Below, one piece after another: positions 14,446 through 29,116 of a DNA stretch of 33,782 nt. Origin of the DNA: a virus. Location of the stretch: IMG/VR virus record IMGVR_UViG_3300004805_000021, positions 1 to 33,782 of that record; one strand, 5' to 3'. Under the pieces are notes generated by a model. That model was not told the DNA's origin and searched no databases. It worked only from the letters and a program-made list of their open reading frames with translations. Every line of letters begins with the position of its first letter. Position 1 is the stretch's first letter. Position numbers and translations under genes: made by a program.

Positions 14446-15773
14446 GTGAACTACCCACCCACGCCAAAGGCGATGGGATGGGCTTCAAGGGTTAACGCTC
14501 CAACTAATGTTGGCAACTTACCTTGATTTTTCCTATCCGTTCCAGATAAGATATTTTTTAATGCAAATGATTTAATATTTATGGCAGCATTAACATCCCT
14601 CGAAACAACTTCACCACACTTTGGACAAGTCCATTCCCTATCTTTTAGAGTTAGGTCTTTGTTTATATGTCCGCAATTTGCGTGTAGTTTCGATGATGGT
14701 TCAAATCTGCCTATTTTTAGAATGTTCTTGCCATACCATTCTGCTTTGTATTCCAACATAGTTACAAAAGTTGACCACCCTGCATCACTTATTGATTGTG
14801 CAAGTTTGTGGTTCTTAACCATATTGGAAACTGCTAAATCTTCAATAGCTATGCTTTCGTGGTTCTTGATAAGTTCGCTTGAAGTTTTGTGTAAGAAGTC
14901 TTTACGTTGATTAGCTACTTTTTCGTGTAGAATAACCAACTTATGCCTCGTTCTCTTCCCTTTGTGCTTTGAATATTTGCGTTGTACATATTTTAATTTG
15001 CTTTGTGCCTTGCGAAGGAATTTAGGATTATCAAATTCTTTACCATCAGATGCAACAAGGTATGTTTTAATTCCTAAGTCTATTCCAACGGTTGTATTTT
15101 CTTTGATTTTTGCCTTTAGTTTAATTGCTTCACCAGTTTCACAAAGGATAGACACAAAGTATTTGCCTGTTGGAGTTCTGCTAATTGTAGCTTGTCTTAT
15201 ATCTCCTTTAGTTGGTCTGTGCAAAATAATATCAATCCCCTTTTTGAATTTTGGAATGATTAGTTTGCTGTTTTCTAACGTTACGCTTTGTGGGATATTA
15301 AAACTACCTCCGTTTGATTTCTTTTTGAAATTTGGGAAACTATTTTGTCCTTTAAAAAAAGCTGTGTATGCCTTATCTAAGTTGGTTATTGATTGTTGTA
15401 ATGATTGGCTGTTGATTTCTTTAAGCCATTCACATTCAGTTTTAAGGTCTTTTAATTGGCTATGTAGTGCAAAGCAACTTAAATTAACTTTATTGCCAGC
15501 CCAAGCCATCTGTTTGCATTCTAAGGCTAAATTAAATACAAAACGACTTGCTCCAATATGCTTATTCAGCAAAATGGATTGTTCCTTTGTAGGGTTAATT
15601 TTGTATTTAAAAGCCTTTAACATCAATTATAAATATGTACAAATATACAAATATTTAAAGAAACAACAAAATTTATTTAAAATAATTATTAACTTTGTAG
15701 TGCAATTAACGGAGCAGGTCGCTTACATCCCACCCACGCTAAAAAGCGATGAGTGGGCTTTCGCTCCCATTAA
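14446..15773 (-). mobile_element. IS605-type element with tnpB only
   Basis: Right end at 14446-14480 and left-end hairpin at about 15715-15773 flank one tnpB; no tnpA is present. The target on the element strand is TTTAC, and excision restores the host gene exactly. It must depend on a TnpA in trans, plausibly the one at 28653. Confidence 0.85.
14451..15623 (-). CDS. tnpB: TnpB RNA-guided nuclease (IS605 family)
   Basis: 390 residues from ATG 15623. N-terminal HTH region (LKAFKYKINPTKEQ), then RuvC-like residues Asp182 (VGIDLGIKT), Glu261 (IAIEDLAV) and Asp343 (SRDVNAA), all present. The zinc finger is changed: HANC (314-317) where other copies have CSNC, then CPKC (333-336); a His ligand could still bind zinc. 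The frame continues through the right end and stops at its TAG. TnpB cuts DNA next to a target motif using an RNA made from the right end. By position the guide would start TATACAAATTATG and the motif would be TTTAC. Confidence 0.85.
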   Translation of the reverse strand: MLKAFKYKINPTKEQSILLNKHIGASRFVFNLALECKQMAWAGNKVNLSCFALHSQLKDLKTECEWLKEINSQSLQQSITNLDKAYTAFFKGQNSFPNFKKKSNGGSFNIPQSVTLENSKLIIPKFKKGIDIILHRPTKGDIRQATISRTPTGKYFVSILCETGEAIKLKAKIKENTTVGIDLGIKTYLVASDGKEFDNPKFLRKAQSKLKYVQRKYSKHKGKRTRHKLVILHEKVANQRKDFLHKTSSELIKNHESIAIEDLAVSNMVKNHKLAQSISDAGWSTFVTMLEYKAEWYGKNILKIGRFEPSSKLHANCGHINKDLTLKDREWTCPKCGEVVSRDVNAAINIKSFALKNILSGTDRKNQGKLPTLVGALTLEAHPIAFGVGG

Positions 15774-17129: not shown

Positions 17130-17690
17130 TTATTCGGCAAATTTAACCTCTTCGCCTACCTTTATTTGTTTTATCCCTTCTAATTTTACTGTTCTAACAA
17201 TTACATCATTTTCGAGTCCTTGATTGAAAGCCTTTGCAGTTGTAGGTTTGAACTGTTTGATAATTTTTATTTGCTCTTCGGTTGCTTCGATACCATTAAC
17301 AAAATAGCCTAGATTTTTAGTTACACCTACATTGCAAATAAATTTAAGGTATTGGCAATTAGTATCAGATTTTTTTGCAATTAGTGAACCATTAAAAGAA
17401 TCTACAATTGTTGTAAACCAATTTTCCTTTGCTACAAATTTTTCAGCAGTTTCGCCGTTTGCAGTTGCCTCTTTAATTCTTGCGTTGTTTACTACATTAG
17501 TGTAATTGCTATTAAGTAACATATTATAACTTACTAACTTTGTGATACCTTCATTTTTTAATGGATTACCCGTTTTAAGTTGTTTTTCTTCAACAATTGC
17601 TAACATTTGACCAAAGGTAGCAGAACCGCCGTTATTAATGATTAAACTAATAATTTCAGCTTTTTTTGATAATTTAATTTCGTTTGTCAT
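17130..17690 (-). CDS. Unknown phage protein, HTH-like N-terminus
   Basis: 186 residues from ATG 17690; an upstream ATG in the same frame at 17729 would overlap the promoter. The start, EIKLSKKAEIISLIINNGGSATFGQML, looks like a winged-helix or HTH segment. The middle has NYTNVVNNARIKEA, and the end is beta-rich (VIVRTVKLEGIKQIKVGEEVKF). Related proteins with an N..Y..VVNNAR segment occur in other Bacteroidota phages as far as I recall, without known function. Own promoter and terminator. Confidence 0.7.
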   Translation of the reverse strand: MTNEIKLSKKAEIISLIINNGGSATFGQMLAIVEEKQLKTGNPLKNEGITKLVSYNMLLNSNYTNVVNNARIKEATANGETAEKFVAKENWFTTIVDSFNGSLIAKKSDTNCQYLKFICNVGVTKNLGYFVNGIEATEEQIKIIKQFKPTTAKAFNQGLENDVIVRTVKLEGIKQIKVGEEVKFAE

Positions 17691-17726
17691 ACATTCAATT
17701 TTTAAAATGTGATTAAAATTATGATA

Positions 17727-17757
17727 CAAAGGTAATTTAAAATTATTTACTGTGCAA
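17727..17757 (-). promoter_or_regulatory. Early promoter of the 17690 gene (type entry for the array)
   Basis: Consensus of the array, read on the coding strand: TTGCACAGTAAA, exactly 11 bases, TAnnTTTG. Here the -7 box is TACCTTTG. TAnnTTTG and a -33 TTG are the known Bacteroidota primary sigma factor elements. The extra conserved CACAGTAAA is specific to this phage region and may be bound by another factor. Confidence 0.85.
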
Positions 17758-17765
17758 GTGAATTA

Positions 17766-17893
17766 TTAATTATTTTTAATTTCTTTTTTAGCTGTTTGTC
17801 GTATACGACTACGGACTAATTTCTTAAAAGTTTTATCTTTTTTCGTCCCCGAAGTTCTTTGTTGGTTATCTTTTTTTCTGTTTTGTTGTCCAT
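17766..17893 (-). CDS. Small basic protein read through a dnaX-type slippery site
   Basis: ATG 17893 follows the promoter at 17927, but its zero frame ends after 25 codons. A -1 slip at 17876-17870 (A AAA AAG, in the correct phase, like E. coli dnaX) leads into the frame ending 17766 and gives 42 residues: MDNKTEKKDNQQRTSG... with a basic end KKLVRSRIRQTAKKEIKNN. The long frame has no start of its own after the promoter. Alternatives are a one-base deletion or an assembly error. Confidence 0.55.
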
Positions 17894-17926
17894 TGTTTTG
17901 CGTTTTATCTTGATTTGATATTGGTT

Positions 17927-17957
17927 CAAATATACGGAAAAGAAATTTACTGTGCAA
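17927..17957 (-). promoter_or_regulatory. Early promoter of the 17893 gene
   Basis: -7 box TATATTTG. The leader that follows is almost the same as that at 21430-21475. Confidence 0.85.
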
Positions 17958-17975
17958 ATATATTAAATAAAAAAT

Positions 17976-17998
17976 ACGTGGCTTATTTCAGACCACGT
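17976..17998 (-). terminator. Intrinsic terminator after the 18300 gene
   Basis: ACGTGG, 11-base loop, CCACGT, then T-rich on the minus strand. Confidence 0.65.
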
Positions 17999-18025
17999 TC
18001 AGACGTAATGCTATAAGATATGTTA

Positions 18026-18045
18026 ATTATCTTCGTCCGAAGATA
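18026..18045. repeat. 8-bp inverted repeat between stop and terminator
   Basis: TATCTTCG, TC, CGAAGATA. An 11-codon frame (MGDEVDIFGRR) overlaps it on the minus strand; it may be a leaderless peptide, an operator, or chance. Confidence 0.3.
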
Positions 18046-18063
18046 TCTACCTCATCTCCCATA

Positions 18064-18300
18064 TTATTTTATTTTTTGTTTTTTAGTGTCCCAGTTTCCA
18101 TAAGATTTAGCAATAGGATTGCCCCGTGAATAGCTATCAAATATTTTGATAACATCACCATTGTTCATTTCGTGAACTTCCTTAGTTCCAGCACCGCCAA
18201 ACATAGAAAATGATTCACCATAAACAGATTTGCCTTGAGCAATACGTTCATTGATTTCTTTTTTTGACTTGCCTTTGATATAATAGGTTTGAATTGCCAT
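18064..18300 (-). CDS. Unknown small early protein
   Basis: 78 residues from ATG 18300. Starts MAIQTYYIKGKSKKEINERI and holds GNPIAKSYGNW near the end. No domain recognised. Own promoter at 18322, 21 bases upstream. Confidence 0.7.
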   Translation of the reverse strand: MAIQTYYIKGKSKKEINERIAQGKSVYGESFSMFGGAGTKEVHEMNNGDVIKIFDSYSRGNPIAKSYGNWDTKKQKIK

Positions 18301-18321
18301 TGTTTTGTTATTTTGTTGAAG

Positions 18322-18352
18322 CAAAGGTATGAATAATTTATTTACTGTGCAA
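18322..18352 (-). promoter_or_regulatory. Early promoter of the 18300 gene
   Basis: Consensus -33; -7 TACCTTTG. Confidence 0.85.
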
Positions 18353-18364
18353 GTGAATTATTAA

Positions 18365-18697
18365 TTATTTTTTACAAATATCATTCATTGATAATATGCA
18401 ATAGTATTTTTTATTACTGAAACCATAATCGAAATAGCAATTTTTAATTTCGGTAGCATTAAGAAATTTATTTGCAATTTTTTTGTTTGTAAACTCAAAC
18501 TTAATATAGGTACAAATATTATTAACAAATATAATTGTCACGTATCTATCAATTTCATTTATTTCAAATGCCATTGTATCTGATTTAAAACTAAAGTATG
18601 AAGGGTTGATTTTAAATCTGTCATAATTCATACCAATTTGTGCATTAGAATTAATAGAGATGAAAGTGATTACGAGTAATAATAATAATTTTTTCAT
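18365..18697 (-). CDS. Small secreted protein with SNAQ signal peptide
   Basis: 110 residues from ATG 18697. Basic start MKK, hydrophobic LLLLLVITFISI, and cleavage after NSNA before Q, the common Bacteroidota signal peptidase I form. The mature part is about 90 residues with four Cys (CTYIKFEF, CYFDY, CILSMNDIC) and could form disulfides in the periplasm. It may alter the host envelope or block superinfection; this is inference from export and early expression. Confidence 0.7.
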   Translation of the reverse strand: MKKLLLLLVITFISINSNAQIGMNYDRFKINPSYFSFKSDTMAFEINEIDRYVTIIFVNNICTYIKFEFTNKKIANKFLNATEIKNCYFDYGFSNKKYYCILSMNDICKK

Positions 18698-18730
18698 AAT
18701 GTTTGTTGTTTTAGTTGTTATTTGATAGTT

Positions 18731-18761
18731 CAAATTTACGATAAAATTATTTACTGTGCAA
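18731..18761 (-). promoter_or_regulatory. Early promoter of the 18697 gene
   Basis: -7 TAAATTTG. The upstream gene's stop (18764) lies three bases from the -33 box. Confidence 0.85.
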
Positions 18762-18763
18762 AT

Positions 18764-19075
18764 TTAATATGTTTGTATAACTCTTTTAATAAATACTATA
18801 CTATCAGATTTACTAATTCTACCAAATATATTATCATTAACTGAAAAATTATAATTTGTGAATAGTTCAGCGATTTTATAATTTGCTACAATTTGTTTTT
18901 GGTTATTCTCCGACCAGGTTTTTTGTCCCTTAAAAGTGTATGCATATTTATAACTTCCATGTGGTTTTTCAACAGTTATAATTATTGCTGAATTATCATT
19001 TTTTGGATAATATGTTTCTTGAGTACATGAAGATAATAGATATAATAATACGGATAATAATAATACTTTTTTCAT
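18764..19075 (-). CDS. Small lipoprotein
   Basis: 103 residues from ATG 19075. MKKVLLLSVLLYLLSSC has a lipobox LSSC with Cys17 as the lipidated residue. The mature chain is beta-rich (AIIITVEKPHGSYKYAYTFKGQKTW) and ends with SKSDSIVFIKRVIQTY. No family known. Probably in the host outer or inner membrane facing the periplasm. Confidence 0.7.
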   Translation of the reverse strand: MKKVLLLSVLLYLLSSCTQETYYPKNDNSAIIITVEKPHGSYKYAYTFKGQKTWSENNQKQIVANYKIAELFTNYNFSVNDNIFGRISKSDSIVFIKRVIQTY

Positions 19076-19099
19076 AGGTTTAATTGTTATTTGATGATT

Positions 19100-19130
19100 C
19101 AAAGATAATATAAAATTATTTACTGTGGAA
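19100..19130 (-). promoter_or_regulatory. Early promoter of the 19075 lipoprotein gene
   Basis: Variant -33 TTCCACAGTAAA; -7 TATCTTTG. Confidence 0.75.
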
Positions 19131-19143
19131 GTGATTACAAAAA

Positions 19144-19169
19144 AAAGTTGCTCATTTCTGAACAACTTT
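19144..19169 (-). terminator. Intrinsic terminator after the mini-lipoprotein gene
   Basis: AAAGTTG / CAACTTT stem with a 12-base loop, then a T-run on the minus strand. Confidence 0.65.
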
Positions 19170-19194
19170 CCTAACAACAATTTAAAAAAAGAAA

Positions 19195-19281
19195 TTATTT
19201 AATAATACCAGAACAAGCACCAAGAACAATTGCTAAAATAAGGATAACATAAAATGCGATAAAGATTCGTGAGGTTTTCAT
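19195..19281 (-). CDS. 28-residue lipoprotein-like peptide
   Basis: ATG 19281 to TAA 19195: a short basic start, a hydrophobic stretch FIAFYVILILAIVLGAC and the tail SGIIK. VLGAC is a good lipobox, so the mature product would be a lipidated hexapeptide; otherwise it is a one-helix membrane peptide. Its own promoter (19318) and terminator (19144) bracket it, which is strong support for a real gene despite the size. It resembles entericidin or lysis-lipoprotein peptides in form only. Confidence 0.65.
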   Translation of the reverse strand: MKTSRIFIAFYVILILAIVLGACSGIIK

Positions 19282-19317
19282 AGATTTAAGTATTTAATTG
19301 TTTAAATATTTGTACTT

Positions 19318-19348
19318 CAAAGATAATATAAAATTATTTACTGTGCAA
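19318..19348 (-). promoter_or_regulatory. Early promoter of the 28-residue peptide gene
   Basis: Consensus -33; -7 TATCTTTG. Confidence 0.85.
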
Positions 19349-19363
19349 ATAAATCAAACAAAA

Positions 19364-19388
19364 AAGCCTAACTTTTTACATTAGGCTT
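19364..19388 (-). terminator. Intrinsic terminator after the 19779 gene
   Basis: AAGCCTAA / TTAGGCTT stem, 9-base loop, T-run on the minus strand. Confidence 0.7.
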
Positions 19389-19422
19389 AATTGCGTGATA
19401 CAAAGGCAGACAGAAAAGTATT

Positions 19423-19779
19423 TTATATATTTTTATCAATCCAGATTTGACAATCATCAACAGTCACCCAGATGATCATTTTTTCAAGTTCTTGTTTTGT
19501 TGTTTTACATGAAACAGATTCGCCATTGTTTGTATTAGTTCCAATAACAAGTCCGTTTCCAACGATAGGATATGACCAATTTTTCATCATGAACCCGCCA
19601 ATATTATCATGAAACAAACCTTCCTCATCACAATAGATAACATCAGCCTGATCAAGTTCAACAGGACAATCAAACATATTACAGTCGTTTCCTAAAGCTT
19701 CGTATATGGGTTTTAAACCCTTTTCCAATTCGATTTCGATAATCGTTTTGGTTACTACATCAATTTTAAGTACTTTCAT
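19423..19779 (-). CDS. DUF3846-like protein
   Basis: 118 residues. MKVLKIDVVTKTIIEIELEKGLKPIYEALG followed by ADVIYCDEEGLFHDNIGGF and YPIVGNGLVIGT fits the layout of DUF3846 (a start VxVDP-like, an EEG in the middle, I-GxxVI near the end), found in phages and plasmids with no known function. The match is from memory of the pattern. Confidence 0.6.
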   Translation of the reverse strand: MKVLKIDVVTKTIIEIELEKGLKPIYEALGNDCNMFDCPVELDQADVIYCDEEGLFHDNIGGFMMKNWSYPIVGNGLVIGTNTNNGESVSCKTTKQELEKMIIWVTVDDCQIWIDKNI

Positions 19780-19804
19780 TTGTTTTGTTGTTTAATTGTT
19801 GATT

Positions 19805-19835
19805 CAAAGGTATGAATAATAAATTTACTGTGCAA
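19805..19835 (-). promoter_or_regulatory. Early promoter of the 19779 gene
   Basis: Consensus -33; -7 TACCTTTG. Confidence 0.85.
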
Positions 19836-19841
19836 ATTAAT

Positions 19842-20141
19842 TTAATTATTTTTCGCAATATCCTCCAATTCAAAACGTAATAATCTACCAGCTTTAAATG
19901 TATCATGACCATATCCGCCACCAGAATATATCTGATTCTGATTAACATTTATCCAAAACATTTCACCCAGAAAATCAATAAGAACTTTACAAACATTCTG
20001 ATCTCTATTTTGTGTGCCGAATATAGGAATTTTTACACTAAACGAATATTCGCCACCAGCTGAAATATAATATCCAATTGAATACCAAGCTATAGATTTG
20101 CCTTCTTTTATTTTTTTATTTAATAATTCTATTGTTTCCAT
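19842..20141 (-). CDS. Unknown early protein (99 aa)
   Basis: METIELLNKKIKEGKSIAWYS, then a Gly/Tyr-rich beta region (GYYISAGGEYSFSVKIPIFG) and a helical end. No family recognised. Single gene between two array promoters. Confidence 0.7.
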   Translation of the reverse strand: METIELLNKKIKEGKSIAWYSIGYYISAGGEYSFSVKIPIFGTQNRDQNVCKVLIDFLGEMFWINVNQNQIYSGGGYGHDTFKAGRLLRFELEDIAKNN

Positions 20142-20165
20142 AGTTTAATTGTTGATTTGATAGGT

Positions 20166-20196
20166 CAAAGATAAGGTTTATTTATTTACTGTGCAA
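20166..20196 (-). promoter_or_regulatory. Early promoter of the 20141 gene
   Basis: Consensus -33; -7 TATCTTTG. Confidence 0.85.
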
Positions 20197-20201
20197 ATAA
20201 A

Positions 20202-20612
20202 TTATGAATGTTTATCCAAATAATAATTGAATTGTGGGAAGAAATTATTTATTCCTTTTTGAATTTCGATCAATTGAACTACATCTAATTCAATTTCTTT
20301 TTTATTCCATTTCGTTTTCAGTTCCCCCCAAAATTTTGCAATTCGTTCAGCCTGATCTTTATTCATTGATATAAATTCAATAAAATGTTTGACTTTGGTT
20401 GATATGATTGATGATTCCCAGATGTTACGAGGATAACCATCAGAGAATACTTTTTTGCTGAATAATATCCAATATGAAGGAATTGCTTTGTTATCAATTA
20501 TTGATACCTGATAGTCCTTTATTTTGCCTGTTCTGCCGTCTTCTAATACTACCGTTTGTCCAACTCTGTATTTATAAGTAACTGACTTTGGCATTTGTTT
20601 TCTAACACTCAT
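20202..20612 (-). CDS. Unknown early protein with SH3/KOW-like start
   Basis: 136 residues. YRVGQTVVLEDGRTGKIKDYQVS (15-37) looks like a small SH3-like or KOW barrel, often in RNA- or ribosome/RNAP-binding proteins. The C-terminal half is helical (ISMNKDQAERIAKFWGELKTKW). Host transcription or translation as the target is only a guess from the fold. Confidence 0.65.
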   Translation of the reverse strand: MSVRKQMPKSVTYKYRVGQTVVLEDGRTGKIKDYQVSIIDNKAIPSYWILFSKKVFSDGYPRNIWESSIISTKVKHFIEFISMNKDQAERIAKFWGELKTKWNKKEIELDVVQLIEIQKGINNFFPQFNYYLDKHS

Positions 20613-20635
20613 TGCTTTGTTGTTTAATGTTAAGG

Positions 20636-20666
20636 CAAAGATATGATAAATTTATTTACTGTGCAA
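20636..20666 (-). promoter_or_regulatory. Early promoter of the 20612 gene
   Basis: Consensus -33; -7 TATCTTTG. Confidence 0.85.
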
Positions 20667-20680
20667 ATAAATTTAATATA

Positions 20681-20710
20681 AAAAACCTGACTTTTTACAT
20701 CAGGTTTTTT
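20681..20710 (-). terminator. Intrinsic terminator after the 21096 gene
   Basis: AAAAACCTGA / TCAGGTTTTT stem with a 9-base loop; it could work in both directions. Confidence 0.75.
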
Positions 20711-20739
20711 AAAGTTGACCATAGAAGGAATAAACAGAA

Positions 20740-21096
20740 CTAACTTATTTTATATTTCTTTTCAACTTTCTTTTTATATTGATCTGATTTGCCATTATCA
20801 GTTTCAACGTATCGGTCAATGATATTATTCATTTCATCAAAATAAACATCTTCAACAGTATGTTTAATTTCATTTCTCTTATAGAAATCCAGACGGTATA
20901 CATCAACTCCATCAATATATGTAATTCTTACAATACCTTTGAATTTGAAGCCTTGCACCTTAAATGATAGATAGGTGTTTTTCTTTTCGTCTTCACCATA
21001 ACTCCAATTATGTGCTCCCCAGCTCATAACTTGCATTGTACCCATACCATATAATTGTTGTTTAATGGTTTGGGGTATTTCTTTTCTTGCTGTCAT
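20740..21096 (-). CDS. Conserved unknown protein (MTARKEIP family)
   Basis: 118 residues. MTARKEIPQTIKQQLYGMGTMQVMSWGAHNWSYGEDE..FKVQGFKFKGIVRITYIDGVDVYRLDF matches, from memory, a small protein widespread in Bacteroidota mobile elements and phages. Function unknown. Own promoter and terminator. Confidence 0.7.
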   Translation of the reverse strand: MTARKEIPQTIKQQLYGMGTMQVMSWGAHNWSYGEDEKKNTYLSFKVQGFKFKGIVRITYIDGVDVYRLDFYKRNEIKHTVEDVYFDEMNNIIDRYVETDNGKSDQYKKKVEKKYKIS

Positions 21097-21120
21097 TGTT
21101 TTGTTGTTTAATTGTTAAGT

Positions 21121-21151
21121 CAAAGGTACAACAAATATTTTTACTGTGCAA
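21121..21151 (-). promoter_or_regulatory. Early promoter of the 21096 gene
   Basis: Consensus -33, two bases from the upstream gene's stop; -7 TACCTTTG. Confidence 0.85.
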
Positions 21152-21152
21152 G

Positions 21153-21434
21153 TTAAACTTCAAATAATTTTGTAATCAAATAAAACACTCCATTATCAGC
21201 AGTGAATGTGATTTCATATTCGTATTCATATCTGTTATTGCAGTCATTGGACAGATCAGCTATGATATAACTGCCTTCGTTCCAATATTCAATATCCTTT
21301 AATTGTTTAGTGATACCTTCGCCAGATACTTTTGATTCACCCAACAGATATGATACATATTTTTCAATAGGTTGTGAAGCATCTTGAACACCCACAAACT
21401 TTTCATTCTCATCAAATATTACTCTTACTTTCAT
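21153..21434 (-). CDS. Unknown early protein (93 aa)
   Basis: MKVRVIFDENEKFVGVQDA... with a beta C-terminus (YEYEYEITFTADNGVFYLITKLFEV). No family recognised. Acidic. Confidence 0.7.
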   Translation of the reverse strand: MKVRVIFDENEKFVGVQDASQPIEKYVSYLLGESKVSGEGITKQLKDIEYWNEGSYIIADLSNDCNNRYEYEYEITFTADNGVFYLITKLFEV

Positions 21435-21468
21435 TGTTTTGCGTTTTTATCTTGATTTGATATTGGTT

Positions 21469-21499
21469 CAAATATACGGATAATTTATTTACTGTGCAA
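21469..21499 (-). promoter_or_regulatory. Early promoter of the 21434 gene
   Basis: Consensus -33; -7 TATATTTG. The leader after it nearly repeats that at 17883-17926. Confidence 0.85.
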
Positions 21500-21513
21500 A
21501 TATATTAAAAGAA

Positions 21514-21537
21514 AAACCCCCAGAATGTAGGGGGTTT
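21514..21537 (-). terminator. Intrinsic terminator in the leader/tail gap
   Basis: AAACCCCC / GGGGGTTT stem with an 8-base loop and T-run on the minus strand; probably ends the 21894 transcript. Confidence 0.75.
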
Positions 21538-21630
21538 CTTTTCGTGATTAAATTTTTCTATAACTTATTAGATATCGTATTATTAAAGTCAATTAAGACG
21601 GGCTTCGTATTGATTTCATCGGATTATATA

Positions 21631-21894
21631 TTAAAATTGTGACATTTTACCGATTGAATAGGTTTGTGTTATTTGAAGAGGAAAAAACCCACCGCCTTCA
21701 ATATGCACTTCATATAAAAAACTATCAGTATTAATTATATAATAAACTGATGTTAGTGATGATTTCGCTATAGGTATGACTTTAGCTGATTGCGGGTATT
21801 CATTTCTGACTTTCAATTCCCTTGCAGCATCCACGTTGCAACTTGCAAAAAGAATGACTGAAAATAAAGCGAGTAATAATGTTGTTTTTTTCAT
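21631..21894 (-). CDS. Small lipoprotein
   Basis: 87 residues. MKKTTLLLALFSVILFASC with lipobox FASC (Cys19). The mature part is VYYIINTDSFLYEVHIEGGGFFPLQITQTYSIG, about 68 residues, beta-rich. Third of the exported early products. Confidence 0.7.
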   Translation of the reverse strand: MKKTTLLLALFSVILFASCNVDAARELKVRNEYPQSAKVIPIAKSSLTSVYYIINTDSFLYEVHIEGGGFFPLQITQTYSIGKMSQF

Positions 21895-21920
21895 ATTGTT
21901 TTGTTATTTAATTGTTGATT

Positions 21921-21951
21921 CAAAGATAAGGAAAATAAATTTACTGTGCAA
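21921..21951 (-). promoter_or_regulatory. Early promoter of the 21894 lipoprotein gene
   Basis: Consensus -33; -7 TATCTTTG. Confidence 0.85.
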
Positions 21952-21969
21952 ATAATTTTAATATAAAAA

Positions 21970-21999
21970 AACGACTACCCTCAGTTGAAGGCAGTCGTT
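21970..21999 (-). terminator. Intrinsic terminator after the 22339 gene
   Basis: AACGACT / AGTCGTT with an inner CC/GG pairing, T-run on the minus strand. Confidence 0.7.
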
Positions 22000-22021
22000 C
22001 AATAACAAAACAAACAATATT

Positions 22022-22339
22022 TTAATCCCAGAATGAATTTTCTTTCAGTTCCACAACGCTTTCAATCCATTTAAGTATTTGATCAGCATAGTATGAAGTT
22101 GTGAGGTCATTCAGAAAATCATCAAGTTTTCTGTGTGCATTTGAGTCAGTGGCTTCAATTGTTCCACGTGTGAATTCCTTTGCATTTGATTGATCAGATG
22201 AACGCCTTGAGCCTGTGGAAAAATCCCAATCTTTTCCGATAACAGCAATTACTTTGCCCGTGATTTCAACTGTGATAATTCCGCCTTTGCAAACCTCCCC
22301 CAATTTATAGGTTTTGGTGATAGTTTTTAATTTAGCCAT
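22022..22339 (-). CDS. Unknown early protein with a truncated paralogue upstream
   Basis: 105 residues: MAKLKTITKTYKLGEVCKGGIITVEITGKVIAVIG..., a beta-rich N-terminal part and a helical end (KLDDFLNDLTTSYYADQILKWIESVV). The fragment at 23110-23163 starts MAKKTKTWKIGEC, so the gene appears to have been duplicated before an HNH gene invaded the other copy. Confidence 0.7.
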   Translation of the reverse strand: MAKLKTITKTYKLGEVCKGGIITVEITGKVIAVIGKDWDFSTGSRRSSDQSNAKEFTRGTIEATDSNAHRKLDDFLNDLTTSYYADQILKWIESVVELKENSFWD

Positions 22340-22361
22340 ATTCTTGTTTTTAATTGTTAAA

Positions 22362-22392
22362 CAAATATATGCATAATAATTTTACTGTACAA
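22362..22392 (-). promoter_or_regulatory. Early promoter of the 22339 gene
   Basis: -33 variant TTGTACAGTAAA; -7 TATATTTG. Confidence 0.8.
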
Positions 22393-22412
22393 GTTTTTTG
22401 TTAACTTTCTAT

Positions 22413-22421
22413 ATATTTATA
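22413..22421 (+). promoter_or_regulatory. Late-type box before the HNH gene
   Basis: ATATTTATA, 15 bases before ATG 22437; opposite in strand and class to the surrounding early genes. Confidence 0.45.
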
Positions 22422-22436
22422 ATAAAATAGGTGAAT

Positions 22437-23120
22437 ATGCAAAAGATATGTATTAAATGTGGAGCTGAAAAAGATATAAATGAATTTAGTAAGCAATCAT
22501 CAAATAAAGATGGATACAAAAATAAATGTAAACAATGTGTTAATGATTATGGTAAAGAATATAGAAACAATAATATTGAATACGAATTACAACGATCAAA
22601 ACTATATTATGAAAATAACAAAGATAAAAGATTAGAATATTTTCATGGTAAGAAAGATGATTTAATTGAATACGGTAAGGATTACAGGGTTAAAAATAAA
22701 GAATCTATTAGTAAAAAGAGAAAAGATAACTATATTATCAATAAAGAAAAAATAGTTAAACAGTCTTATGAAAGTTATAAAAGAAGATTAATCAACGATC
22801 CTATTTTCAGACTTAAAGTAAAAATTAAAAGTACTATTAGATCATCAATAAGAAGTAGAGGATATCTTAAAAAAGATAGAACCATAGATATACTTGGATG
22901 TAGTGTAAATGATTTTAAAATATATCTCGAATCAAAATTTGAACCCTGGATGACTTGGGTTAATTATGGAAAATATAATGGTGAAATGAATTATGGGTGG
23001 GATATTGATCATATTATTAAATCATCTTGTGCAACAACGGAAGAAGAACTTATTAAACTTAATCATTATTTAAACCTTCAACCACTATGTAGTAAAATAA
23101 ATAGAGATGTTAAGAGATGA
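22437..23120 (+). CDS. HNH homing endonuclease
   Basis: 227 residues (GTG 22431 is an alternative start). The N-terminal zinc motif is CIKCG...CKQC; a long charged helical middle follows, then LGCSVNDFKIYLESKFEPWMTWVNYG and the HNH core WDIDHIIKSS...LNHYLNLQPLCSKINR, with the DH pair and the two Asn of the motif. It is the only full-length HNH gene here and runs opposite to its neighbours. It lies within a truncated paralogue of the 22022 gene, as expected for a free-standing homing gene. Confidence 0.85.
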   Translation: MQKICIKCGAEKDINEFSKQSSNKDGYKNKCKQCVNDYGKEYRNNNIEYELQRSKLYYENNKDKRLEYFHGKKDDLIEYGKDYRVKNKESISKKRKDNYIINKEKIVKQSYESYKRRLINDPIFRLKVKIKSTIRSSIRSRGYLKKDRTIDILGCSVNDFKIYLESKFEPWMTWVNYGKYNGEMNYGWDIDHIIKSSCATTEEELIKLNHYLNLQPLCSKINRDVKR

Positions 23121-23163
23121 ACCAACATTCACCGATTTTCCATGTTTTTGTTTTCTTTGCCAT
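23110..23163 (-). pseudogene. N-terminal stub of a 22022-type gene cut by the HNH insertion
   Basis: 17 residues, MAKKTKTWKIGECWFIS, after an intact early promoter (23188). The first 13 resemble the start of the 22022 product; the frame then runs into the HNH gene and stops. Confidence 0.55.
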
Positions 23164-23187
23164 TTGTTTAGTTGTTTAATGTTGAAC

Positions 23188-23218
23188 CAAAGATACAAAG
23201 AATTTATTTACTGTGCAA
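23188..23218 (-). promoter_or_regulatory. Early promoter left driving a gene stub
   Basis: Consensus -33; -7 TATCTTTG. Its -33 box also encodes the last residues and stop (AQ-TAA) of the 23492 gene. Confidence 0.85.
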
Positions 23219-23492
23219 GTTGTTTTAATATAATATCTAATTTGTCAATATCATAATTCAATAAATGTTTCATTTTTGGATAAGGAAATAGTTGTGTTAT
23301 TTTTGCACCGTAAATAACACCTTTTCTTCGTTTATCAAAAGGTACTTCATAATAAACATAAACACCTTTATAATCAGCCACCCAATTTATGGAAATTTCA
23401 TCCATTGAATGTTTACCTTTTTCTTTAACCTTGATTAGAATTTGGTCTATTAATAAATCTTTTTCTTTATCATTATTTTTAATGTGTTTCAT
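23208..23492 (-). CDS. Unknown early protein ending inside a promoter box
   Basis: 94 residues from ATG 23492; the frame is open to 23519 but that would cover the -7 box. Charged start MKHIKNNDKEKDLLIDQILIKV, then a beta segment (WVADYKGVYVYYEVPFDKRRKGVIYG). The C-terminus QLAQ-stop is written by the -33 box of the next promoter. Confidence 0.7.
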   Translation of the reverse strand: MKHIKNNDKEKDLLIDQILIKVKEKGKHSMDEISINWVADYKGVYVYYEVPFDKRRKGVIYGAKITQLFPYPKMKHLLNYDIDKLDIILKQLAQ

Positions 23493-23508
23493 TGATTGAT
23501 ATTTGATT

Positions 23509-23539
23509 CGAATATACAAAGAATTTATTTACTGTGCAA
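23509..23539 (-). promoter_or_regulatory. Early promoter of the 23492 gene
   Basis: Consensus -33; -7 TATATTCG, the only copy with a C in place of the third T of TTTG. Confidence 0.75.
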
Positions 23540-23542
23540 GTT

Positions 23543-23806
23543 TTATTTGATATTATTTAAAATATCAATTAAATCTTCAATTGTAGCTTCTGAGAATAAA
23601 CTATAATGATAACCATGTGAATCCAAAAAAATTAACCGCCCATCAATCATAACCAATTCACTATAATCAAATACATTAACCTTTAAAGCATTTCCTTGTA
23701 TATGATCGGATTCAAGCTTACTCATTGCAATTTCTTTTTGAAGGGCATCGAGTACCTTTTCTTGCAATTCATTGTAATCATTTGATAAATGAAGATATTT
23801 GCTCAT
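23543..23806 (-). CDS. Unknown early protein (87 aa)
   Basis: A helical first half (YNELQEKVLDALQKEIAMSKLESD) and a short beta segment (VMIDGRLIFLDSHGYHYSLF). No family recognised. Confidence 0.7.
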   Translation of the reverse strand: MSKYLHLSNDYNELQEKVLDALQKEIAMSKLESDHIQGNALKVNVFDYSELVMIDGRLIFLDSHGYHYSLFSEATIEDLIDILNNIK

Positions 23807-23828
23807 AGCTTTGATATATTATTTGATT

Positions 23829-23859
23829 CAAATATACGGAAAAGAAATTTACTGTGCAA
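23829..23859 (-). promoter_or_regulatory. Early promoter of the 23806 gene
   Basis: Consensus -33, one base from the upstream stop; -7 TATATTTG. Confidence 0.85.
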
Positions 23860-23860
23860 G

Positions 23861-24097
23861 TTAATTTGGAAAAATCGTATTAAAATTAAATGACTCAAGG
23901 ATAGGTGCATTATTTGGCATCTTCATTGTCCTTTTATTTAATCTTTGAGCATACACAACATCATTTTCAAATCCAAATATTTTATATAATTGTGTACCTT
24001 CTCTGCCGAAGAATTTACATGGTACTTCAAAAAATGTTCCTTTCTTAACACCTTTGTATTCATCGGTGAATTTAATATCAATTAATTTTCTGTCCAT
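23861..24097 (-). CDS. Unknown early protein, second gene of a pair
   Basis: 78 residues: MDRKLIDIKFTDEYKGVKKGTFFEVPCKFFGREG..., basic and beta-rich. It has no promoter of its own and starts seven bases after the stop of the 24335 gene, so the two form an operon. Confidence 0.7.
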   Translation of the reverse strand: MDRKLIDIKFTDEYKGVKKGTFFEVPCKFFGREGTQLYKIFGFENDVVYAQRLNKRTMKMPNNAPILESFNFNTIFPN

Positions 24098-24104
24098 GAT
24101 TTTA

Positions 24105-24335
24105 TTATTCAGTGGTTAATGAAAAATAAGGTAAATCTCTTTCAGTAATTTTACCATATTGATACAGTCCGTGTTTCACGGGTATGCTGATTTCTGTTGG
24201 TCGGGTTTTCCATGTCTTTGGTTTTCCATTCACCCTCCATCGTTGAGGTGTACCATCGGCATTATTTGCACTCATTGAATGTAGGATTGTACCATTCTTT
24301 AATTCCTTTGCATCTTCAAATGTCATTCCATTCAT
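24105..24335 (-). CDS. Unknown early protein, first gene of a pair
   Basis: 76 residues from ATG 24335 (or 24326): FEDAKELKNGTILHSMSANNADGTPQRWRVNGKPKTWK. The NADGTPQRWRVNGK stretch recurs in small phage proteins as far as I recall; no function known. Confidence 0.7.
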   Translation of the reverse strand: MNGMTFEDAKELKNGTILHSMSANNADGTPQRWRVNGKPKTWKTRPTEISIPVKHGLYQYGKITERDLPYFSLTTE

Positions 24336-24358
24336 TGCTTTGTTGTTTTAATGTTAAG

Positions 24359-24389
24359 CAAATATACAAAGAATAAATTTACTGTGCAA
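24359..24389 (-). promoter_or_regulatory. Early promoter of the 24335-24097 pair
   Basis: Consensus -33; -7 TATATTTG. Confidence 0.85.
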
Positions 24390-24391
24390 AT

Positions 24392-24595
24392 TTATTCGAA
24401 TTTAATTTTACCAACAATTTGTTCCAAGTGTTCGACAATTCCATCATCACTGAATACTGATTCTCTCAGATATTTTCTTCCATCTTTCAGCGCTCTGATA
24501 TTAGATTGAAACATACCACATATCCAACAGAATCGTGAAGTTCCATTGATAAGCTTGATCTGATCATCATTTAAATAAAGTCTTTGATTTGCCAT
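24392..24595 (-). CDS. Unknown early protein (67 aa)
   Basis: From ATG 24595: MANQRLYLNDDQIKLINGTS, CWICG motif, then a charged helix. A single CxxC could be a half zinc site. The upstream open frame to 24658 covers the promoter and is not used. Confidence 0.7.
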   Translation of the reverse strand: MANQRLYLNDDQIKLINGTSRFCWICGMFQSNIRALKDGRKYLRESVFSDDGIVEHLEQIVGKIKFE

Positions 24596-24627
24596 AGTTT
24601 TGTTGTTTAAATTGTTATTTGATAGGT

Positions 24628-24658
24628 CAAAGATACATAAAATAAATTTACTGCGCAA
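24628..24658 (-). promoter_or_regulatory. Early promoter of the 24595 gene
   Basis: -33 variant TTGCGCAGTAAA; -7 TATCTTTG. Confidence 0.8.
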
Positions 24659-24667
24659 ATAATTTTA

Positions 24668-24877
24668 TCATGAATCTTGATCTTGTAATCTCATCCTTGC
24701 TGCATCTTGTTTGTTACGTTCTTGTTGCGCTTCTTGTTTGTGTTCGGTACAATATCCTATATATACTGTATCAATGGCATCAGAGAATGCAGGTGTATAG
24801 TTGAATGAACCTTGCAGGTTTTCAGTCTTGCACACATGGCAAGTAACTACATATCCTCTATTATTTTTTATGATCAT
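24668..24877 (-). CDS. Small Cys-containing protein without visible promoter
   Basis: 69 residues: RGYVVTCHVCKTENLQGSF...YIGYCTEHKQEAQQERNKQ. CHVC and CTEH could bind one zinc. Unlike its neighbours it has no array promoter; the HNH remnant starts 17 bases upstream and probably replaced it. Confidence 0.65.
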   Translation of the reverse strand: MIIKNNRGYVVTCHVCKTENLQGSFNYTPAFSDAIDTVYIGYCTEHKQEAQQERNKQDAARMRLQDQDS

Positions 24878-24893
24878 AGCTTTTTGTATTTAA

Positions 24894-25031
24894 CGGTGGG
24901 ATATTGATCACATAATTCCTATTAGTTCTGCAAAAACAGAAGAAGATGTAATAAGATTAAATCATTATACAAATCTTCAACCTTTATGTTCGTATGTGAA
25001 TAGATATATAAAAAAGGAAAATTTAGTTTAA
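24894..25031 (+). pseudogene. C-terminal fragment of an HNH endonuclease
   Basis: The frame RWDIDHIIPISSAKTEE...LNHYTNLQPLCSYVNR...KENLV-stop is the last 45 residues of an HNH protein, closer to the 26913 copy than to the 22437 one. No start and no N-terminal part. Confidence 0.8.
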
Positions 25032-25169
25032 ATTTTTTAACAATTCTTTAAACACTTCTACTGTTATTGATCCAGATTTTACTAAAATATATATCATTGT
25101 GCTTTTTTCATCCAGGGATTGAATGTTGTTAATCTTTTGTGTGAGTTCATCTTCTGTGTATAATCTCAT
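25023..25169 (-). CDS. Small protein (48 aa) beside the HNH fragment
   Basis: ATG 25169 to TAA 25023: MRLYTEDELTQKINNIQSLD...LLKNLN; helical and charged. It has no array promoter. Its stop overlaps the end of the HNH fragment. It may have lost its promoter, or be read from upstream. Confidence 0.45.
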   Translation of the reverse strand: MRLYTEDELTQKINNIQSLDEKSTMIYILVKSGSITVEVFKELLKNLN

Positions 25170-25232
25170 AATAAAGAGTGTTTAACAATAATTTATTATA
25201 GATACATCTTCGAGCATCCATAATAAATACAC

Positions 25233-25469
25233 TCATATTATAATTTGTTTACCATAAATCAGATTAACAATAAGTTTTTTCTTTGCAAGTTTATTGATCT
25301 CCTTTTCTGATTTAATAATGAACTCAACATTTACCTTAAAATGTAATTTCTTATTCACCAAAATTAAGATACAATTTTCATCAAATATATCCTCAATTTC
25401 GCAAGAACAATCAATACCATCATTTGTGGTATATGAAACTGATTTATGAAATAGTTTTTCTTTGCACAT
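25233..25469 (-). CDS. Unknown early protein (78 aa)
   Basis: From ATG 25469: MCKEKLFHKSVSYTTNDGIDCSCEIEDIFDENCILILVNKKLHFK, Cys-containing and beta-rich, ending VNLIYGKQIII. No family known. Confidence 0.65.
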   Translation of the reverse strand: MCKEKLFHKSVSYTTNDGIDCSCEIEDIFDENCILILVNKKLHFKVNVEFIIKSEKEINKLAKKKLIVNLIYGKQIII

Positions 25470-25490
25470 AATCTTGATTTGATATTGATG

Positions 25491-25521
25491 CAAATATACG
25501 GAAAATAAATTTACTGTGCAA
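25491..25521 (-). promoter_or_regulatory. Early promoter of the 25469 gene
   Basis: Consensus -33; -7 TATATTTG. Confidence 0.85.
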
Positions 25522-25534
25522 GTATATAAACCAA

Positions 25535-25560
25535 AAAAGCCTGATGAAAGTCAGGCTTTT
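25535..25560 (-). terminator. Intrinsic terminator after the 25913 gene
   Basis: AAAAGCCTGA / TCAGGCTTTT stem, 6-base loop; symmetric, so usable from both sides. Confidence 0.75.
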
Positions 25561-25595
25561 CCAGAACAATTAAAACAACTTAATAAACAAATTCA

Positions 25596-25913
25596 TCAAT
25601 ATCTTGTGGTAATTTTGTTCTGATAGTCATTATATATATCAATTAGTATTGATTTAGAAGGAATACCATACATAGTTCCGAGTAATACACCATTTGATGT
25701 ATAAACCTCAATTTTTTTATCCTTTCCCTTTTTTATAGTTTCCAAACTAAAGTATTGACTTATTTCGCAATATTGTTTCATGAGAGTAGGAAACCGAATT
25801 GTATCTGAAGGTTCTGTTGTATAATAATAAACCAATTTTAAAGGTTTGTAATTATTAGCATTAACCAATGTTATAGTCAGAATACAAAATATCAAAAATA
25901 ATAGTTTCTTCAT
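25596..25913 (-). CDS. Small secreted protein
   Basis: 105 residues. Signal peptide MKKLLFLIFCILTITLVNA with likely cleavage after NA. Mature part NNYKPLKLVYYYTTEPSDTIRFPTLMKQYCEIS..., about 86 residues; no family known. Fifth exported product of the array. Confidence 0.7.
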   Translation of the reverse strand: MKKLLFLIFCILTITLVNANNYKPLKLVYYYTTEPSDTIRFPTLMKQYCEISQYFSLETIKKGKDKKIEVYTSNGVLLGTMYGIPSKSILIDIYNDYQNKITTRY

Positions 25914-25929
25914 AGATTTAATTTATGTA

Positions 25930-25960
25930 CAAAGATAAGCAAAATTTATTTACTGTGCAA
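25930..25960 (-). promoter_or_regulatory. Early promoter of the 25913 gene
   Basis: Consensus -33; -7 TATCTTTG; ATG follows 16 bases on. Confidence 0.85.
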
Positions 25961-25964
25961 ATTT

Positions 25965-26159
25965 TCACCAATAATTTTCTTCAAGCCAATTTGCTACCTC
26001 AACATCAAAACAAATATTCAGTTCTTCATCATCAATTTCAGGAATAGTATATCCCGCCATGAATCCAACTTTTTCATTGTTGATGTATATTTCTACACCA
26101 TGTTCAACTTGTCTGACAATAAACTCATTGCCATAACTCCATACACCTTTTTCATTCAT
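25965..26159 (-). CDS. Unknown early protein, second gene of a pair
   Basis: 64 residues, acidic: MNEKGVWSYGNEFIVRQVEHGVEIYINNEKVGF, ending WLEENYW. It starts 15 bases after the upstream stop with no promoter of its own. Confidence 0.65.
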   Translation of the reverse strand: MNEKGVWSYGNEFIVRQVEHGVEIYINNEKVGFMAGYTIPEIDDEELNICFDVEVANWLEENYW

Positions 26160-26174
26160 ATACTATATATTTAA

Positions 26175-26552
26175 TTATGATTTAAAATATAATTCGCCTG
26201 ATTTCCAATTCTTTTCACCCTCTGTCATTTCTTTAACAAAGGCAACAGCCTTTGCATCGTTTGGATTATAAACAAATGCACCGTCAGTTGAACACACCGA
26301 AAAATCACCATGAGTTAAACCATGAATGTAATACTTAGCACCTTCATTATCTCCAAGTGTTTCAAGTGCCTTAATACAAGGTTGCTTTAATTCAGAAATC
26401 ACTTTTACATTACCCGTAAAGGATGATGTAATACCAAGTTTTACCTTTACTTCGGTAAATAACTTAAATTCATTTGTCATTCCGAGATTTTCAAACCCTT
26501 TGAGAATCAAAGGTAAATATCCACTTTGTGGTCTTGAATAAGGATTGCTCAT
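26175..26552 (-). CDS. Unknown early protein, first gene of a pair
   Basis: 125 residues: MSNPYSRPQSGYLPLILKGFENLGMTNEFKLFTEV..., then ALETLGDNEGAKYYIHGLTHGDFSVCSTDGAFVYNP. No domain recognised. Confidence 0.7.
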   Translation of the reverse strand: MSNPYSRPQSGYLPLILKGFENLGMTNEFKLFTEVKVKLGITSSFTGNVKVISELKQPCIKALETLGDNEGAKYYIHGLTHGDFSVCSTDGAFVYNPNDAKAVAFVKEMTEGEKNWKSGELYFKS

Positions 26553-26576
26553 TTGTTTAGTTGTTTAATTTTGATC

Positions 26577-26607
26577 CAAAGATATGATAAATTTATTTAC
26601 TGTGCAA
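26577..26607 (-). promoter_or_regulatory. Early promoter of the 26552-26159 pair
   Basis: Consensus -33; -7 TATCTTTG. Confidence 0.85.
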
Positions 26608-26611
26608 GTTT

Positions 26612-26812
26612 TTACCAGAAGAAATCATCAATTTTAATATCAAATCCTTGTAACCCTTTAATGAGTTCAACAAAATTATCGTATTCATGTGTACCAATTT
26701 GTCCATCGGTAACAATTTTGCCATCCTTCATTTCAATGTAACCCATCACTTTTCCGTTGCTTCTGATTGACATAAGAAATTGATCTCTCGATAATCCAGT
26801 TGTTCCACACAT
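26612..26812 (-). CDS. Unknown early protein (66 aa)
   Basis: MCGTTGLSRDQFLMSIRSNGKVMGYIEMKDGKIVTDGQIG...FDIKIDDFFW. Small alpha/beta protein, no family known. Confidence 0.65.
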   Translation of the reverse strand: MCGTTGLSRDQFLMSIRSNGKVMGYIEMKDGKIVTDGQIGTHEYDNFVELIKGLQGFDIKIDDFFW

Positions 26813-26835
26813 ATAATTTGATTTTAATTGTTAAG

Positions 26836-26866
26836 CAAAGATATGTTAAAATTATTTACTGTACAA
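26836..26866 (-). promoter_or_regulatory. Early promoter of the 26812 gene
   Basis: -33 variant TTGTACAGTAAA; -7 TATCTTTG. The HNH remnant begins about 45 bases upstream. Confidence 0.8.
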
Positions 26867-26912
26867 ATAATTTTATTGTTTTTTTTATCATTTTTTCATT
26901 ATTATTGTAATT

Positions 26913-27330
26913 ATGGACAGAAAAGAATACGGTGAAATTTATCGTGAAGTAAATAAAGAAAAAATAAAAGAACACAAAAAAATATATTATCAAAATAATA
27001 AAGATAAGAAAAAACAATGAATTGTATAAATTAACTATATACATAAGAGTATCTATACAAAAAAATTTTAAAGAAAATGGATACAAAAAGAACTCAAAAA
27101 CCGAATTAATTTTAGGTTGTTCCTTTAATGAATTTAAATCTTATCTTGAATCGCAATTTGAAGATTGGATGAATTGGGATAATTATGGAAGATATGAAAA
27201 GGGAAAATATAATATTGGGTGGGATATCGACCACATAATTCCAGTTAGTTCCGCAAAGACTGAAGAAGATGTAATAAAATTAAATCACTACACAAATCTT
27301 CAACCATTGATATGTTCTTGGATGTTAGGA
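26913..27330 (+). pseudogene. Frameshifted HNH endonuclease cut by IS605
   Basis: MDRKEYGEIYREVNKEKIKE...NNKDKKKQ-stop is followed in another frame by LYKLTIYIRV...ELILGCSFNEFKSYLESQFEDW and the HNH core IGWDIDHIIPVSSAKTEE...LNHYTNLQPL. One A too many near 27010 accounts for the shift. The end is altered (LICSWML) and joins the IS right end at 27331. The N-terminal zinc motif of the 22437 protein is missing. Confidence 0.75.
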
Positions 27331-27387
27331 GTGAACTACCCACCCACAGCATAGCTGATGGGATGGGCTTCCTGCACAACGCATAGC

Positions 27388-28506
27388 CTAATGACTTACG
27401 TTAGCGTACAAAGGGTTGTCCCTAACCCCGAAATTCTTTATATTATAAGCGGCGTTTAAATCTCTATCCATTGAATTACTACACTTATCACAATCATAAG
27501 TTCTATCTGAAAGTTTTAAATCTTTCTTGTGGTTTCCACAATTAGAACATACTTTACTGCTTGGTTCAAATCTGCCAATTACAACAATATTTTTACCTTG
27601 CCATTCAGTTTTATATTCAAGCATTGTTCTTAATTGTCGCCAACCCATTTCAGATATGGCTTTAGCTAAATTATGGTTCTTAACCATATTACTAACTGCT
27701 AAATCTTCTAATACAATTGTATCATACGTGTTTACTAATTCAGTAGATATTTTATGCAAGTAATCAGTCCTTTGGTTACGGATTTTTTCTTGCAATAATG
27801 CTACTTTTAATTTTTGTTTTTCTCTATTTATTGAACCTTTCTGTTTTCTTGCAAAGCTTCTCTGTTCAACTCTTAATCTTTTTTGTTGTGATTTGAAAAA
27901 GTTTTTATTTTCATATACCACACCATCAGAAGTAATAGCTAAGTCTTTAATACCAAAATCAATTCCAACAGATGTTTCCGTTTTAATTAACTTTTGTTTT
28001 GGCTTTTCTATTTGTGTATCAACCAATATTGATACAAAGTATTTACCAGTAACAGTTTTGCTTAATGTAACTCTTTTTGGTAATCCTTTGAACAATCTAT
28101 GATAATCAATAGCAACCTCTTTTAATTTAGGTAATTTTAAAATGTTGTTATCAAAATCAACCTCAAAACCTTGTGGAAATGTAACTGACTGTTTAGAATA
28201 CTTATTTTTAAATTTAGGAAATTGCCCCTTACCTTTAAAAAAGTTTTGATATGCTGTGTCTAAATTGATAATACTATGTTGTAGTATTTGACTTGGACAT
28301 TCTTTAATGTAATCAAATTCATTTCTTAATTCTGGAAGTTGTTTAATTAAATCGTATTTAGATATTGATGTTTTATTTGAAGCATACGCAACAGTCTTGG
28401 TTTCTAAACCAAGATTATATACTAATCTATTTACACCAAAATACCTTTGTAATTGGGTTTTTTGGTCATCCGTTGGGAATATTCTGTATTTGTATCCTTT
28501 AAGCAT
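27388..28506 (-). CDS. tnpB: TnpB RNA-guided nuclease (IS605 family)
   Basis: 372 residues. RuvC residues Asp183 (GIDFGIKD), Glu267 (IVLEDLAV) and Asp349 (MDRDLNAA) are present; zinc finger CSNC (320-323) and CDKC (339-342) is intact. It ends before the right end, unlike the copy at 14451, and differs enough from it in sequence to be a separate lineage. Expected to cut DNA at TTTAT-flanked sites under a guide beginning TCCTAACATCC, read from the flank beyond the right end. Confidence 0.9.
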   Translation of the reverse strand: MLKGYKYRIFPTDDQKTQLQRYFGVNRLVYNLGLETKTVAYASNKTSISKYDLIKQLPELRNEFDYIKECPSQILQHSIINLDTAYQNFFKGKGQFPKFKNKYSKQSVTFPQGFEVDFDNNILKLPKLKEVAIDYHRLFKGLPKRVTLSKTVTGKYFVSILVDTQIEKPKQKLIKTETSVGIDFGIKDLAITSDGVVYENKNFFKSQQKRLRVEQRSFARKQKGSINREKQKLKVALLQEKIRNQRTDYLHKISTELVNTYDTIVLEDLAVSNMVKNHNLAKAISEMGWRQLRTMLEYKTEWQGKNIVVIGRFEPSSKVCSNCGNHKKDLKLSDRTYDCDKCSNSMDRDLNAAYNIKNFGVRDNPLYANVSH

Positions 28507-28652
28507 ATATTATTAAATAGTCTAAACTTTTGTAAAAGTACAACATTTTTATCTAAATTACAAGTTTTGGTTAAATTTATTTTATTTGATACCGTATTTT
28601 GTTTAAATCATTCCGTCTTTGGTTGTAAATAATTTAAACAAAATACTACATT

Positions 28653-29057
28653 ATGCAATCAAATTACATTTCTACAAATCGTTCAAAACATTATCTAAAA
28701 TGTCATCTAATCTTAGTTACTAAGTATCGTAGAAATATTTTAGTAGGTCAGTTAAATGATGATTTAAAAGATATTTTTCAATCTATAGCTGATAGTTCAG
28801 ATTTTGAAATAGAGGTAATGGAAAGCGACATCAATCATATCCATTTCTTAGTTAGGTATATTCCTCGTTTATCAGTTTCGCAAATGGTTCGCAGGTTAAA
28901 ACAAGAATCTACACGTCAGCTATGGTTATTGCATCACACTACATTACGTCAAGAATATTGGTATCAGCGGTTACTTTGGTCTGATGGTTTCTTTGTTTGT
29001 TCAATTGGTGAAGCATCACCAGAAACCATTCGTCAATATATATTATCACAAGGTTAA
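28653..29057 (+). CDS. tnpA: Y1 transposase TnpA (IS200/IS605)
   Basis: 134 residues, full length for the family. HUH motif His62-Ile-His64 and catalytic Tyr129 in ETIRQYILSQG. It cuts and joins single-stranded element ends recognised through the subterminal hairpins. Divergent from tnpB with about 145 bases between. Confidence 0.9.
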   Translation: MQSNYISTNRSKHYLKCHLILVTKYRRNILVGQLNDDLKDIFQSIADSSDFEIEVMESDINHIHFLVRYIPRLSVSQMVRRLKQESTRQLWLLHHTTLRQEYWYQRLLWSDGFFVCSIGEASPETIRQYILSQG

Positions 29058-29116
29058 TGGTCGCTTACATCCCACCCACGTTCCGATGGGTGGGTTTTAC
29101 GCTCCGTCTTATAAAA

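Follow-up and report, generated by a model that had tools for sequence, protein, structure and literature searches.

In phage T4, numerous small accessory genes are placed under numerous host-type early promoters. Some early phage products are exported to the envelope and block superinfection. T5 Llp is a small early lipoprotein that jams the FhuA receptor from the periplasm and blocks superinfection (PMC9586334), and T4 Spackle (gp61.3), a small early protein whose signal peptide is cleaved off, acts in the periplasm as an inhibitor of the tail lysozyme (PMC7677548). We analysed a 33,782-bp virus record (the window), DNA of a virus infecting Bacteroidota, in which five small genes of an early-type array encode products with predicted export signals. 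As in T4-like phages, many small accessory genes are read here from many host-type early promoters. However, the promoters of the window are of Bacteroidota type and carry an extra box after the –33 element, and this box barely changes among the promoters of a given phage but differs from phage to phage.

Judged by gene content, the window represents part of the genome of a large T4-like Bacteroidota phage, and the 298,833-bp virus record G013 (298.8 kb) is a relative, 'T4-like' denoting here shared genes and not a position in a tree. The UvrD-type helicase of the window is 63–64% identical to the helicase of G013. We use the label because G013 encodes a ribonucleotide reductase, an SbcC-like subunit and members of the terminase, portal and major head protein families of tailed phages, and because the window encodes a phage-type dNMP kinase. 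Small array genes (17690, 19779, 22339, 26552, 31552 and 32279) are homologous across the window, G013 and the 36.6-kb record G007, some of them being found in just one of these two records. Apart from an 80-bp remnant at 24909–24988, with 89% identity to the HNH endonuclease gene of Flavobacterium phages elemoA and elemoB, no near DNA match to named phages was found for window positions 17–29 kb. Several transposase genes, one of them a fragment, are also present (27388–28506, minus strand; 28653–29057, plus; 14451–15626, minus; 4762–5160, plus) and are probably TnpB and TnpA of IS200/IS605 type. An HNH/endonuclease VII-like gene (22431–23120, plus strand) lies antisense to 23110–23163 (minus strand), the gene of promoter 23188–23218, shortened to 17 aa; the sequence suggests a homing-type endonuclease inserted into this array gene.

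The array extends over 17690–33333 on the minus strand. The promoter class TTGCACAGTAAAT-N11-TAnnTTTG has 32 copies in the window (at most 3 mismatches) versus 0.02 expected in shuffles, and 31 of the 32, near-identical to each other, are on the minus strand between 17.7 and 33.3 kb. Their –33 TTG and –7 TAnnTTTG elements, ∼20 nt apart, fit the primary-sigma consensus of Bacteroidota, TTTG / TAnnTTTG (PMC6847099; PMC2483708). Hence, the host polymerase could read the array at once, and we infer from the host-type promoter that the array genes belong to the early class. The sigma consensus leaves unexplained the box CACAGTAAAT, which directly follows the –33 element, between –33 and –7, and hardly varies in more than 30 promoters. 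Its versions in related phages are CAAGTTAAAT or CACATTAAAT in G013 and CACAATAACT or GTCAGTAACT in G007. The box may be the binding site of a regulator reading all early promoters. One promoter (30748–30778, minus strand) is not followed, in the next 130 nt, by the start of any ORF of at least 20 aa; it may belong to a decayed gene or to an RNA.

The original prediction placed five exported proteins or lipoproteins in this array, each with its own promoter. We confirmed five ORFs on the minus strand with ATG starts at 18697, 19075, 19281, 21894 and 25913, each 16–36 nt downstream of the –7 element of an array-class promoter. Export signals, which are predictions throughout, were judged by a simple hydropathy and motif rule (signal-peptide/lipobox filter), and under this rule a classical N-terminal signal is present in all five products. 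The peak hydrophobicity of any 10-residue segment close to the N-terminus (h) is 2.9–3.5 in the five; no other promoter-linked gene of the window exceeds 2.04 or has a comparable export signal. The full rule was passed by 5 of 27 promoter genes, all with h ≥ 2.9, whereas amino-acid shuffles averaged 0.7 passes and never gave more than 3. The signal prediction proposed as a check thus came out in favour of the claim, and the particular signals it named (SNA-Q at 18697, three lipoboxes, the signal peptide at 25913) were all found. Early export of the five to the envelope is well supported by sequence.

Two of the products are type I (signal peptidase I) substrates. In Bacteroidetes, Gln usually follows the signal peptidase I cleavage site, a Q-rule that covers about 71% of substrates (PMC5837995). 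The 110-aa product of the 18697 gene (18365–18697; promoter TTGCACAGTAAATAATTTTATCGTAAATTTG at 18731–18761) fits the Q-rule (..SINSNA/QIG). The 105-aa product of the 25913 gene (25596–25913; promoter at 25930–25960) has a type I signal but N after the site (..TLVNA/NNY), and a terminator-like hairpin lies downstream of the gene (25531–25564). The other three carry a lipobox, with Cys after a hydrophobic N-terminal segment, and are predicted to be lipidated. The 19075 gene (18764–19075) encodes 103 aa with lipobox LLSS/C and mature sequence CTQETYYPKND..; in its promoter (19100–19130) TTC replaces TTG at –33, which may make it weaker. The 21894 gene (21631–21894; promoter at 21921–21951) encodes 87 aa with lipobox LFAS/C and mature sequence CNVDAAREL.., and a terminator-like hairpin lies downstream of it (21512–21539). 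The shortest is the 19281 gene (19195–19281; promoter at 19318–19348), a putative 28-aa mini-lipoprotein, MKTSRIFIAFYVILILAIVLGAC followed by SGIIK, with lipobox VLGA/C and a predicted mature part of 6 residues, CSGIIK. It is the sole ORF of its transcription unit, which is closed by a terminator-like hairpin with a T run (19141–19172; –14.7 kcal/mol by folding, though absent from the terminator predictions that gave the other two hairpins), and it is predicted to be translated. All these genes, promoters and hairpins are on the minus strand. Longer, TTG-started versions of the 18697 and 19075 genes were rejected in favour of the ATG starts, since they would open within the promoter or ahead of it.

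None of the five has a significant match in Pfam, PHROGs, NCBIfam or PDB sequences, and the names NigD, LptM, VirB7 and P2X were rejected for them because the scores fall well short of the cut-offs. For the 19075 product, the match to NigD vanishes without the signal peptide; a weak match of the 18697 product to a related-phage protein is likewise gone once the signal peptide is removed, and it was rejected as homology. No relatives of the 18697, 19075 and 21894 products were found in viral contigs; together with 19281, these are orphans, without relative outside the window. The structure model of the 18697 product is mostly beta, of modest confidence, and a fold search with it gave no match. 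The 25913 product belongs to a family common to related phages, with relatives in G013 and its near copies, L094 and L101, all with signal peptides. Its mature part alone retrieves the family, and a profile search returns the same members. The family is predicted to be exported in at least three related phages.

We compared the array with those of related phages. In G013, 44 of 45 promoter matches fall within one 32-kb region (186–218 kb) of about 60 genes, and none is near the head genes; G007 contains another one-promoter-per-gene array. The array end is marked by a conserved 186-aa gene, the anchor (17130–17690, minus strand), with 62–66% identity in G013 and G007. Neither the anchor gene nor the 25913 product has a match in named phage genomes, and the anchor gene gave no match in bacterial genomes and no family matches. 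With the anchor gene as query, 19 loci were retrieved. In nine distinct arrays the exported genes lie closer to the anchor than other promoter-linked genes do (normalised rank sum 10.2 versus 15.0 expected; permutation test, P-value = 0.001, an approximate value as the arrays are related, the window is among the nine and a few export calls may be membrane proteins). Exported genes are kept mainly at the anchor end of the array in related phages. A crude automatic count of export signals throughout the G013 genome gave 4 of 71 in the array versus 8 of 307 elsewhere (P-value = 0.25, not significant, computed without re-scoring the hits elsewhere, several of which resemble plain membrane proteins). 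Hence, our claim concerns position within the array, not overall enrichment. In some relatives the anchor gene is duplicated, with copies at 6671 and 13923 in L101 and at 186313 and 196684 in G013.

Other exported families occupy the same place in relatives. One of them, a secreted basic peptide of 62–63 aa (..CDAYKTHYAPIKPERH..CDAYN), is encoded at 7286–7474 in L096, 17188–17379 in L051 and 13474–13662 in L101, and is missing from the window. Its mature part, identical at most positions, is more conserved than its signal peptide, which indicates selection on the predicted exported product. A 21-aa hydrophobic micro-protein, MSILFVLTLFCGALLIMAVLM, nearly identical in L096 and L095, has its own promoter about 0.8–1.0 kb before the anchor in both.

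Many lipoproteins of Bacteroidota are surface-exposed, and those that are carry a lipoprotein export signal, an acidic run at about +3 to +6 after the Cys (PMC5080379). We did not find this signal in the 19075, 19281 and 21894 products, each of which has no more than one acidic residue at +2 to +6, and the acidic run is also absent from five lipoproteins of related arrays. Because no Bacteroidota surface-export signal is present in any of the three, they probably face the periplasm. This predicted location would favour blocking from inside over masking of receptors at the surface.

We propose that, after DNA entry, the host RNA polymerase would start from dozens of host-type promoters of almost the same sequence, with one or two small genes behind each, and that the host Sec system would export five of the array products. 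Two, after cleavage by signal peptidase I, would be soluble in the periplasm, and the other three would be small membrane-anchored lipoproteins facing it. The five would be part of an exported set kept mainly at one array end in these phages, and its most likely purpose would be an early change of the host envelope, made from within the periplasm. Our leading guess is superinfection exclusion, in which the lipoproteins might act like T5 Llp and jam a receptor of the outer membrane from its inner side; alternatively, the soluble proteins might act like T4 Spackle and stop the tail of an incoming phage at some step of its passage. Exclusion or another envelope takeover is the best explanation we can offer, with a chance that we put at about even, because the predicted periplasmic side, the early class and the fast divergence of these genes coincide with the known ability of early exported phage proteins to block superinfection.

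The described proteins are analogues in type rather than in sequence. Searches of Pfam, PHROGs and NCBIfam connected none of the five with a known exclusion family, and no match indicating Llp/Cor likeness was found among the models of these collections; such proteins diverge fast. No sequence relation to T5 Llp/Cor lipoproteins or to Spackle was found. Moreover, Llp is encoded by a single gene beside that of the receptor-binding protein, whereas the large Bacteroidota phage studied here has several exported genes, all within its early array. Spackle shares with the five the small size, the early class and a signal peptide, and T4 is resembled by G013 in head genes. However, Spackle is an alpha-helical bundle, while the model of the 25913 product is alpha/beta and that of the 18697 product mainly beta, with modest confidence.

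Instead of exclusion, the exported proteins might act early, in the periplasm or a membrane, to regulate host physiology or the timing of lysis (through lysis inhibition or control of envelope stress, proteases or chaperones), which we consider unlikely but the most serious of the alternatives. T4 RI is an early periplasmic lysis regulator, and tiny membrane proteins such as the 21-aa one recur in the same block. In addition, the model of the 25913 product (alpha/beta, pLDDT 69) resembles the thioredoxin fold, which is common in the periplasm. This likeness is weak, though: it spans 76–79 residues with Z about 7.4, below the level that excludes chance, and TM about 0.5, the model is of low confidence, and the sequence has no thioredoxin match in sequence search. 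CxxC is missing from the 25913 product and its three aligned relatives, and a thioredoxin function was rejected on that account. The window genes that were searched included no recognisable holin or endolysin, which also speaks against lysis control.

Counter-defence or anti-competitor factors at the envelope, for instance inhibitors of membrane- or periplasm-located defence systems, would fit the rapid turnover (four of the five are orphans) and the position in an accessory early array, both expected of an arms race. No similarity to known anti-defence proteins was found in Pfam, PHROGs, NCBIfam or PDB sequences, and we regard this possibility as rather more doubtful. The original prediction also considered receptor masking, that is, outer-face proteins that block or alter surface receptors. 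Bacteroidota do display many lipoproteins on their surface (PMC5080379), but the acidic run that would direct the three lipoproteins there is lacking in them and in the five from related arrays. Early envelope export is supported by the export signals, by promoters of host type and by a location that related phages conserve; masking by the three lipoproteins became improbable. Finally, it is very improbable that the signals arose by chance in AT-rich small ORFs and that some genes (the 28-aa one in particular) are untranslated or represent plain membrane peptides or RNAs: the 28-aa product is very short and has no relative, and 2.8% of random-DNA ORFs of the same dinucleotide composition pass the rule, but all five have h ≥ 2.9 (0.5% of such ORFs) and an array promoter, the 28-aa ORF stands alone in the interval from its promoter to a strong hairpin, and an Rfam search found no RNA.

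Returning to exclusion and envelope takeover, a broader version can be put forward tentatively, as a possibility well short of even: large T4-like phages of Bacteroidota may use a dedicated, positionally conserved early exported block to remodel the diderm envelope, by a route unrelated to any described exclusion protein. Such a block would take in periplasmic proteins, periplasm-facing lipoproteins and micro-membrane proteins. Envelope change by Bacteroidota phages after entry is little known, and we found no described relative of these proteins. The conserved early exported group would narrow down the candidate genes for superinfection exclusion or envelope control in Bacteroidota, whose lipoprotein sorting and signal-peptide rules are unusual, and the conserved families, that of the 25913 product and the CDAYKTHYAPIKPERH peptide of relatives, mark the genes of first choice.
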